Shown here: one piece after another, positions 4,741 to 7,621 of the stretch
How the letters are laid out: every line of letters begins with the position of its first letter
How positions within the stretch are numbered: the stretch's first letter is position 1
DNA from: Deltaproteobacteria bacterium RIFOXYA12_FULL_61_11
GTDB lineage: Bacteria > Bdellovibrionota_F > JAHFAK01 > YA12-FULL-61-11
NCBI GenBank assembly: GCA_001799195.1
Contig: MGSU01000153.1
Coordinates: 1-8,867, forward strand
Length of the DNA stretch: 8,867 nt
Direction: 5' to 3'
Position numbers and translations under genes: made by a program
Notes under the pieces: generated by a model
Database searches by the model: none
Seen by the model: the letters and a program-made list of their open reading frames with translations, nothing else
Told to the model about the DNA's origin: nothing

Positions 4741-6153
4741 TTAGGGGTTGGGCAAGGGCTGGAGCACAATATCGCGATCCAGGCCGTGGTCTCCGAGCGT
4801 GAATTCCGCCTTGTGCTCTGCATAGCCCTTGGCTCTGAAGATGACCGTCCGAACTCCCTGCGGCAGGGGAATGGTGAAGCGGCCAAAGCGCGGTTCGCTG
4901 CGCCGGAGTTCCCCTTCCTGATAGCCGAAACCGACCACCTCGAAGTCCGCCACCAGGGGTTTTCCGGTCTGTGCATCGCGGACATGCCCGCGGAAAGCAG
5001 GACCGAGCAGCAATTCCAAGAGGTAGCGCCAGCCGGGTCTCAATCCACCGAGGATCTTCTCGCGCATGGCTTGATAGCTCGGTTGGAAGGCAGAGCCGAT
5101 CTCGGTAACGAACGCCAAGGTCCCGAGTTCGTTGAAGAACCAGTCGCGATCGAGCCCATCCACGGAATAGAGCTTGTTGCGGAAATCATACACCCCTTTG
5201 CCGTCATCCTTGGTCATAAGCCCGGCATAGGTCTTGGCCACCCCGGCCATGAACTCGGTCGCACCGGTAGGCAGCTTGGCCGTACCGCAACCATAGGGCG
5301 GATAGAGGACCACGTTGCCATAGCTGTGGTACGAGACGTTGAGGGCGAAGTGGCGGTCCCGGGCGAGGGTCATCAGCAGGCGAGCCTCGGGTTCTGAGGC
5401 GGCAGCGGGACCGCGATAGGTGTCACTGCCAGGACTGGCGCTCGAACCGTTGCAAGCGCCCCATTTAAAGGGATAGTTCCGGTTGAGGTCCACACCGAAG
5501 GTCTTGGCGTCATTGGGCCGCCGGTTCTTGCGCCACCAAGCATCGGACGTGAGCACATGGTCGAGCCCGTCGGGGTTGATCACCGGGAGGAACCAGAGCT
5601 CGAGACTATCGACGAGGCGCCGGATACCGGGATCCTTGGCATACCCCTCGAGTAGCTTCTCGGTGATATCGAGCACGGCTTCGACGGTCATGAGTTCACG
5701 TGCATGGTGCAGTCCGTTGAAGGCGACCGTCGGCTCGTCTTCCTCGAGATGAACGTTGTCGGAAATAACCAAGGCGTAGAAGGGACGTTGCCCATGGCTC
5801 GGGGGTAACCCGAGCCAACTATTCACTTCTACCACGCGGGCCAGCGTGGGATAGCGCTTCGAGAGCTCCTGCAGAACAGCGAGGACCCTGGCATTGTCCT
5901 TGTAATCGGGATCCACGCCCTCGGGTTCAACGGCAAGGGTTTCCAGTTCTATACCGAGTTGTTGCAGGTCGAACACCTGTTCGTCGTCGAGGATGACGTC
6001 TAGGCGGATCCGGTCTGGTGCCAAACCTGCCACATCCAGTTCTCCGGAAATCATTCTGATATCGTCGGGAGACACCCGCACGAGTTGTCGCCCGGCCTGG
6101 ACTTGGGTGGCCAGGAGAACAGCGAGGACGAGGACTGCACAGCGATGAGTCAC
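4741..6153 (-). CDS. secreted M14 zinc metallocarboxypeptidase
   Basis: This enzyme of 470 residues would remove C-terminal amino acids from peptides outside the cytoplasm. The signal peptide is residues 1-20 (hydrophobic core AVLVLAVLLA, probable cut after VQA). A propeptide-like part (about 21-80) precedes the peptidase domain (about 85-380). Catalytic residues are all present: zinc ligands H150 and E153 in HHARE, H276 in YHSYG, substrate-binding R208, N224-R225 in DLNRNYP, a candidate tyrosine Y329 in KLYS, and the general base E351 in VTEIGSA. Residues about 384-470 resemble the transthyretin-like CarboxypepD_reg domain (FRGHVRDAQTGKP). Substrate class (basic or hydrophobic residues) cannot be assigned safely. 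The GTG start at 6153 is chosen because a G-rich ribosome site lies four bases upstream and the signal peptide follows directly; the open frame upstream to 6477 lacks coding character. The transporter gene follows closely. Confidence 0.93.
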   Translation of the reverse strand: MTHRCAVLVLAVLLATQVQAGRQLVRVSPDDIRMISGELDVAGLAPDRIRLDVILDDEQVFDLQQLGIELETLAVEPEGVDPDYKDNARVLAVLQELSKRYPTLARVVEVNSWLGLPPSHGQRPFYALVISDNVHLEEDEPTVAFNGLHHARELMTVEAVLDITEKLLEGYAKDPGIRRLVDSLELWFLPVINPDGLDHVLTSDAWWRKNRRPNDAKTFGVDLNRNYPFKWGACNGSSASPGSDTYRGPAAASEPEARLLMTLARDRHFALNVSYHSYGNVVLYPPYGCGTAKLPTGATEFMAGVAKTYAGLMTKDDGKGVYDFRNKLYSVDGLDRDWFFNELGTLAFVTEIGSAFQPSYQAMREKILGGLRPGWRYLLELLLGPAFRGHVRDAQTGKPLVADFEVVGFGYQEGELRRSEPRFGRFTIPLPQGVRTVIFRAKGYAEHKAEFTLGDHGLDRDIVLQPLPNP

Positions 6154-6157
6154 GATA

Positions 6158-6170
6158 CCCCCCCTTTTTT
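6158..6170 (-). promoter_or_regulatory. homopolymeric A6-G7 ribosome-binding site of the carboxypeptidase gene
   Basis: Read on the minus strand, six A (6165-6170) run straight into seven G (6158-6164), four bases before the GTG start at 6153. It serves as a Shine-Dalgarno-like AAGGGGGGG and decides the start. Both tracts are homopolymers, so slippage would alter the spacing to the start codon. Confidence 0.55.
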
Positions 6171-6203
6171 GTGCTACCAGATCCCAGGTACGAACCGGGC
6201 GTC

Positions 6204-6232
6204 GTTGTACCAGATCGGTGCTGAAAAGGCAA
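6204..6232 (-). promoter_or_regulatory. possible sigma-70-type promoter for the carboxypeptidase-transporter operon
   Basis: The minus strand reads TTGCCT (6227-6232), a 17-base spacer and TACAAC (6204-6209), each matching 4/6 of the consensus. Transcription would begin near 6197 and give a leader of about 44 bases to GTG 6153. It lies in the 109 bp between divergent start codons. Confidence 0.35.
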
Positions 6233-6262
6233 TGATTGCGATGCTCCTCCGACTGCGCTAGG

Positions 6263-7621
6263 ATGATCCAGGTTCTCATCCGGATTCTTCCCATGTTTCT
6301 CGTACCGTACCTGCTCCTGCTCCTCGCTCTCGGTTGTTTTCCGATGATCATCGACGTCAACGACAAACAAAAGGACGAAGAAGACCTCGCCTCCATTCCG
6401 GTCGAGCAGGACTTTCCCATGGATTTCCGCTCGGGCCAACCCCTCGGCGCCGTCAATGGTCTCGGCGATCTGAACAATGATCAGAGCGTAGACCTGGCCG
6501 ACCTGGAGCTTTTCACCGCAATTCTCGCCGGCAACTACACCCCCCCGGAGAACGAGCGTCAGGTCACCTTGCAACGCATGGACCTCAACGCCGACAGCAA
6601 GGTCAACTACCTCGATCTCCTCGTCCTGCAGGAATTCCAGAAGGGCAATCTTCCCCTCGGTCTTCCCCTGCTGGGCGCACGGTTCGGCGACCTCGACGGT
6701 GACGGACAGAGCACTGAAAACGATCTGGAAACCCTGCGGCTCACCGTCGCGGCTCCTGCGACCGCCATGCCCATGGCTCGTATCTGCGGCGACCTCGACC
6801 TCGACGGCACGTATGACGCCCACGACCTGCAGATACTCCGCCAACACCTCCGCGGAACCTTCCCCGAGCTACCGGTACAAGTCGCGTACGGCGACCTCGA
6901 TCTCGATGACACCATCAACGTGGACGACATCGCCGTGGCCACGACTATCCTCGACAAGGGAGACCGCTATGACCTCGCCCAATCGACCCTTCCGGGTTCG
7001 GTCGGCCAGGTACGCCAGATCCTTGCTCTTGACTTGAACAAGAACGGCCTGGTCGGACGCGCCCTGGACCCCTTCGACGAATACATCTTCCTCGACTTCC
7101 TCAAACAGAACCTTAAAACCCTCCCCTTCCGGATCAGCTACGGCGACCTGGACGCCAACGGGACCGTCGAGGCCGCGGATTACGACCTCGCCAAAAAGGT
7201 CCTCTCCAAGGAAATCATCCCCGCGACGCTCAGCCAACTCCTGGCCCTCGACGTGAATCAGGACTATGACCGGAGCGGTCAACCCGAGAAGGATTTGGTC
7301 ATCAACCGGCTCGATGTGGAGCTCGTCGGTCTCGCCGCCACCGGCGATCCGGACCTGTTCAGGCGCGAAGGACGGTTCTCCTGCCGTTACGGCGACCTCG
7401 ACCGCGACCATGACGTCGATGCCGCCGACCTCCTCCTCTTGCAAAGCCATGTCGGAGGTACGCCTCTTCCCGATGGCCCCTGTGCCTTGCTCGTGACCGA
7501 CCTCGATCTCGACGGCAGCCTCAGCGCCGCTGATGCCGCCCTACTCGGAACAGCCGTGGAAGCAGGAGAAGCGGCCGAGCCCTTCCCCGGAGAAACCGAG
7601 GTACGCGCTTCGAGAGAGTGA
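6263..7621 (+). CDS. lipoprotein with five tandem dockerin-like (EF-hand-type) modules
   Basis: The product has 452 residues from ATG 6263. Residues 1-24 form a lipoprotein signal (MIQVLIR, a Leu-rich core, lipobox ALGC) with acylated C25. A short acidic linker (26-66) follows. Residues 68-443 carry ten calcium-loop motifs of the DxDxDGxxxxxD kind, starting near D69, D107, D143, D177, D211, D257, D295, D330, D378 and D413. The second loops of modules 3 and 4 (D257 and D330) carry insertions. Odd loops begin with GDL and even loops mostly with an ALD or TDL form, so the repeat unit is a pair, as in type I dockerins. Dockerins usually dock onto cohesins as a single C-terminal module on an enzyme; no enzyme domain is present here. 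It would be anchored in a membrane, facing the periplasm or outside. Start choice is uncertain: TTG 6236 and ATG 6293 are in frame, but 6263 gives the best n-region. Calcium binding and partner are inferred. Confidence 0.83.
   Translation: MIQVLIRILPMFLVPYLLLLLALGCFPMIIDVNDKQKDEEDLASIPVEQDFPMDFRSGQPLGAVNGLGDLNNDQSVDLADLELFTAILAGNYTPPENERQVTLQRMDLNADSKVNYLDLLVLQEFQKGNLPLGLPLLGARFGDLDGDGQSTENDLETLRLTVAAPATAMPMARICGDLDLDGTYDAHDLQILRQHLRGTFPELPVQVAYGDLDLDDTINVDDIAVATTILDKGDRYDLAQSTLPGSVGQVRQILALDLNKNGLVGRALDPFDEYIFLDFLKQNLKTLPFRISYGDLDANGTVEAADYDLAKKVLSKEIIPATLSQLLALDVNQDYDRSGQPEKDLVINRLDVELVGLAATGDPDLFRREGRFSCRYGDLDRDHDVDAADLLLLQSHVGGTPLPDGPCALLVTDLDLDGSLSAADAALLGTAVEAGEAAEPFPGETEVRASRE
6464..7591 (+). 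repeat. five tandem protein-coding modules (dockerin-like) within the lipoprotein gene
   Basis: Modules begin at the (Y/F/L)GDL motif, residues 68, 142, 210, 294 and 377, giving lengths of 74, 68, 84 and 83 residues plus a last unit of about 66. Modules 3 and 4 share extra features: a Q-x-LALD(L/V)N block before the second loop and an inserted, longer second loop, so they look like the most recent duplication. Similarity is at protein level; the DNA has diverged. Confidence 0.7.

Follow-up and report, generated by a model that had tools for sequence, protein, structure and literature searches.

The window, by which we mean the whole 8,867-nucleotide stretch of DNA analysed here, carries on its forward strand a gene for a protein of 452 residues (P0001; positions 6263..7621, ATG at 6263, stop codon at 7619-7621). 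A signal peptide (aa 1-24, 6263..6334, with a helix predicted for aa 2-24) leads into a lipobox cysteine, Cys25 (LLALG-C; 6335..6337), and a linker of about 40 residues in which Pfam recognises no domain (aa 26-65, 6338..6457). The remainder consists of five two-loop dockerin modules encoded on the same strand: module 1 (aa 66-135, 6458..6667; loops at aa 69 and 107, best Pfam stretch aa 67-123), module 2 (aa 136-204, 6668..6874; loops at aa 143 and 177), module 3 (aa 205-288, 6875..7126; loops at aa 211 and 257), module 4 (aa 289-371, 7127..7375; loops at aa 295 and 330) and module 5 (aa 372-446, 7376..7600; loops at aa 378 and 413). The stretch PYLLLLLALG-C25 matches the PROSITE-type lipobox pattern, and the mature protein is acidic (13% Asp, pI about 4.1). 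P0001 is thus a predicted lipoprotein that would be lipidated in a diderm host (Omp85 match at 1.7e-49). It may sit in either the outer or the inner membrane; the residue at +2 after Cys25 is Phe, which by the Lol rule of E. coli would not give inner-membrane retention, although that rule comes from a different lineage.

The divergent neighbour encodes a secreted M14 zinc carboxypeptidase without a dockerin (4741..6153, minus strand; Peptidase_M14, 9.7e-53), and its GTG start at 6153 lies 109 bp from the start of the lipoprotein gene. The longest open reading frame for this peptidase (window 4741-6477, minus strand) begins at a TTG within the lipoprotein gene; the GTG at 6153 is likely the real start, with a G-rich ribosome-binding site ahead of it and a signal peptide after it. 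On the other side of P0001 is a convergent metallophosphoesterase gene. A promoter scan found nothing, and a terminator scan gave a single terminator-like match, at chance level.

Searched against Pfam, P0001 matches Dockerin_1 (PF00404; E = 1.1e-24, 86.8 bits where the cut-off is 22.9, in five stretches) and, with a far lower score, EF-hand_7 (1.7e-8, 35.1 bits against a cut-off of 30), and no catalytic, carbohydrate-binding or adhesin domain. Its ten loops all follow the pattern D-x-[DN]-x-[DNS], compared with a mean of 0.55 and a maximum of 6 in 20,000 residue shuffles of the protein, and the five modules, spanning aa 66-446, account for about 89% of the mature chain. The original prediction had described ten calcium loops, arranged as five two-loop modules, filling nearly the whole mature protein behind a lipobox with no catalytic domain, and had looked to dockerin and EF-hand profiles for a match; on all of these points the sequence agrees with it. 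The grouping into two-loop modules is also reflected in the similarity among odd and among even loops, which is significant in a paralogue described below (p = 0.016, exact permutation) but weak in P0001 alone (p = 0.095). Among PDB sequences the best matches to P0001 are all dockerins, the first being the tandem pair of the C. thermocellum protease Clo1313_0689 (3.6e-6).

For fold prediction, module 5 was taken as a 78-residue domain with the other four modules of P0001 as its alignment, giving a model with a pLDDT of 81 and a pTM of 0.69. Its topology is loop-helix-short helix-loop-helix, the helix ahead of the first loop being absent. In a Foldseek search of the PDB the best 30 matches to this model were all dockerin entries (probability 0.99-1.00), with TM scores by target length of 0.69-0.87 for most single-dockerin chains; the best E value was 4e-3, a modest figure such as a domain of 78 residues would be expected to give. 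VIA-align gave Z scores of 8-10 to many dockerins, the top score of 10.0 going to the C. thermocellum double dockerin (8x39); rows of low Z were set aside as ordinary EF-hand-like resemblance. We consider the modules of P0001 to be genuine dockerin-family modules, as judged by profile for modules 1-4, from sequence alone, and by predicted fold for module 5. A single-sequence AlphaFold2 model of the whole protein had a pLDDT of 36 and was discarded, so we infer, rather than read from a model, both a rod shape and the packing of modules against one another.

One further dockerin protein is encoded in the genome, a paralogue of 428 residues on another contig (L011:8775-10061); a search for paralogues of the repeat had been suggested at the outset. 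It is 38-40% identical to P0001, with three single-residue gaps in total over aa 66-445. Scored module against module, the two proteins give 99-185 for modules at the same position and 29-91 for all other pairings, so that the highest score always falls on the positional match. The order of the five modules is therefore older than the duplication and has been kept since, the array having been duplicated whole and then retained. Conservation is uneven, with module pairs 3 and 5 scoring 185 and 182 and the remaining pairs 99-144. Loop residues are identical at 63/120 positions compared with 90/258 outside the loops, and within loops the calcium-ligand positions are identical at 26/32 while positions 10/11 are at 5/16. 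Eight of the ten loops, in both paralogues, are canonical 12-residue loops with D, N or S ligands at positions 1, 3, 5 and 12, so that the coordinating residues have been kept as the calcium-loop assignment expected. The irregular loops 6 (aa 257, the second of module 3) and 8 (aa 330, the second of module 4) are lengthened in P0001 by 4 and 10 inserted residues ahead of the last Asp, and the same insertions are present in the paralogue. These comparisons rest on one pair, the exact architecture being known from two sequences: with the alignment of both paralogues as a profile, no relatives were confirmed in a collection of genome contigs, and among 386 genomes the exact ten-loop array occurred only as the two copies in this one.

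No strict lipobox is present in the paralogue, and its gene neighbours are not those of P0001: they encode a VWA protein and one with an HD domain, and genes for C11 and C25 peptidases lie close by. The surrounding segment (L011:853-16588) is a protease-rich region of surface genes, in which the C11 peptidase is of the clostripain type and the C25 peptidase of the gingipain type; besides the VWA protein, it encodes one of 1404 aa that has Ig-like and FGE-sulfatase domains. Both copies keep a pair of cysteines in the last module (Cys374 and Cys407 of P0001, within window 7376-7600), which could form a disulfide there.

No cohesin was detected in the genome, which is 87% complete, with Pfam PF00963 at E <= 0.001 or at E <= 10. 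As a guard against divergent cohesins, we built a profile from 20 aligned cohesins of 20 other genomes; its best E value in this genome was 0.96, compared with 1.8e-6 or better in five control genomes that had contributed no sequence to it. Nor does the genome encode a detectable dockerin-bearing enzyme, all ten dockerin matches falling in P0001 and its paralogue, and neither dockerin nor cohesin was found in the single genome examined from its class. The absence of cohesins is strong but not final, since one could be encoded in the part not assembled. Among the 386 genomes, dockerins were found in 100 and cohesins in 81, with 61 genomes having both (odds ratio for co-occurrence 21); dockerins without a detected cohesin, in 39/386 genomes and mostly with few dockerin matches, are thus not rare.

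Further arrays were sought with a DNA pattern that describes three dockerin loops in a row and that matched 61 stretches among 84,980 genomes, an undercount since one codon was fixed in the pattern. An uncultured Clostridium encodes a protein (L107) that consists of a signal peptide and ten loops (five dockerins) and nothing else, in a genome with three cohesins; one of the three cohesin proteins also bears a dockerin. Twelve loops are found in a protein from Phycisphaerales (L090), and about twelve with further repeats in one from Selenomonadaceae (L088), no cohesin being found in either genome, nor in that of a third array, L126, with Pfam or the 20-sequence profile. An array of eighteen loops followed by a protease-like stretch (L110, from a bacterium) was dropped as a cohesin-free example, as its genome has no Pfam cohesin but gives a match of 2.2e-7 with the 20-sequence profile. 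Several other stretches, L093, L097, L101 and L125 among them, were excluded from the relatives, being TSP3-like Asp-rich repeats by sequence reading and not dockerins.

Repeat positions 10, 11, 17 and 18 are the predicted cohesin-recognition residues of dockerins (Dassa et al., PMC4081043). Compared across loops, these positions have a mean pairwise BLOSUM score of -0.19 in P0001 and -0.04 in the paralogue, with no repeated code, whereas arrays from genomes with cohesins score +1.39 (L107) and +2.21 (L096) and show a repeated pattern; the arrays L088, L126 and L090 range from -0.29 to +0.40. The lack of a repeated code in P0001 is a hint against a cohesin-binding array, drawn from few proteins.

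These results bear most directly on the proposal that P0001 is a multivalent docking platform, the inverted cellulosome-like scaffold of the original prediction, whose partner cohesin would be too divergent for the profiles, encoded in sequence absent from the assembly or supplied by another organism. Cohesin binding is the known job of the dockerin fold, the two gene families co-occur strongly, L107, from a genome with three cohesins, is built almost identically, and the divergence of the paralogues could mean divergent specificities. However, neither cohesin profile found a partner, including the one validated on left-out genomes; no dockerin enzyme was detected; neither component was found in the genome of the same class; and the recognition positions of P0001 and its paralogue, unlike those of L107 and L096, show no repeated code, a suggestive difference among few proteins. 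We therefore think a docking platform unlikely in this organism, and L107 is the better candidate for an inverted scaffold.

The best-supported reading is that P0001 is a calcium-stiffened, lipid-anchored stalk of dockerin folds that works without cohesins, because neither cohesin nor dockerin enzyme was detected, the calcium ligands and module order are conserved, and no recognition code is repeated. We hold it tentatively, as not quite an even prospect. After export, Cys25 would be lipidated and would hold the protein in a membrane; the linker would then lead to the five tandem modules, the paired loops of each would bind calcium, and calcium would fold and stiffen the array into an acidic stalk, perhaps serving as a spacer. 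Its interface would be set module by module, not as five equivalent cohesin-binding heads, with no need of cohesins. Of the functions first put forward, a calcium-dependent rigid stalk is hence the one that survives, with its rigidity and calcium occupancy presumed, and with module 5 giving a dockerin-like model where the whole protein did not give a usable one. Against it stand the co-occurrence of similar arrays with cohesins in other organisms and the paralogue's lack of a strict lipobox. More generally, it is plausible, if somewhat short of evenly balanced, that dockerin modules have here been co-opted as building blocks independent of cohesins, forming a calcium-stiffened, lipid-anchored solenoid that has a structural role or binds a target other than cohesin, in a lineage without cellulosome parts.

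A third explanation is that P0001 is a calcium sensor or buffer, in which calcium bound by the ten loops at the cell surface alters the protein's conformation, and this alteration either signals to an adjacent membrane or protease system or shields it. The EF-hand_7 match, the conserved ligands, the Asp-rich, acidic mature protein and the upstream region common with the divergent M14 peptidase are all consistent with such a role, but the protein has no signalling domain and no transmembrane output, and its paralogue has different neighbours. Dockerin loops are usually calcium-loaded at extracellular calcium concentrations, and permanent loading suits a structural role better than sensing, so we consider this explanation improbable. 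Equally doubtful is an adhesin in which modules 3 and 5 bind a non-cohesin target (a polysaccharide, an S-layer or a host polymer) with the rest as spacer, since the uneven conservation that would favour it is set against a module 5 resembling an ordinary dockerin and the want of any carbohydrate-binding or adhesin domain match.

The original prediction took dockerins to sit normally once, at the end of an enzyme, which is broadly right, but proteins with several dockerins have been published (PMC4081043, PMC12484212) and more were found here; they are rare, and their structure and function are given as unknown in PMC12484212. P0001 and its paralogue are an all-dockerin pair in a genome without a detectable cohesin or dockerin enzyme. 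The seven-dockerin protein of Ruminococcus flavefaciens 007c (EWM52407) and 17 (WP_019680459) (PMC4081043) is like P0001, by its description, in joining tandem non-identical dockerins in one polypeptide, but the genome that encodes it abounds in cohesins and dockerin enzymes, and P0001 differs from it in being a predicted diderm lipoprotein. Clo1313_0689 of C. thermocellum (PDB 8x39/8x3a) likewise has tandem dockerins, although there two modules are joined to an S8 protease and the organism makes cellulosomes, compared with five modules and no enzyme in P0001. L107 shares with P0001 ten loops behind a signal peptide, and differs in its repeating recognition positions and its genomic cohesins. 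Ruminococcus albus (PMC4081043) resembles the present genome in having dockerins with cohesins nearly or wholly absent (one or none), but its dockerin-containing proteins number 58-90, include many enzymes and have recognition residues in common, which is not so here. The 'Planctosome' model of freshwater Planctomycetes (PMC6461901) offers a non-cellulosomal use of dockerins around peptidases, including an M14 carboxypeptidase; it needs cohesins and dockerin-bearing peptidases, however, whereas the M14 neighbour of P0001 has no dockerin. By separating a dockerin array from its usual context, the pair found here opens to experiment the question whether dockerins can serve as a structural element that depends on calcium, or as binders of a non-cohesin target. 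At the other extreme, one genome of the survey (G058; 5.0 Mb in one contig, with loci L014, L018 and L152) contains a very large cohesin-dockerin system, with about 126 cohesin matches to the 20-sequence profile and 515 first-look dockerin candidates.
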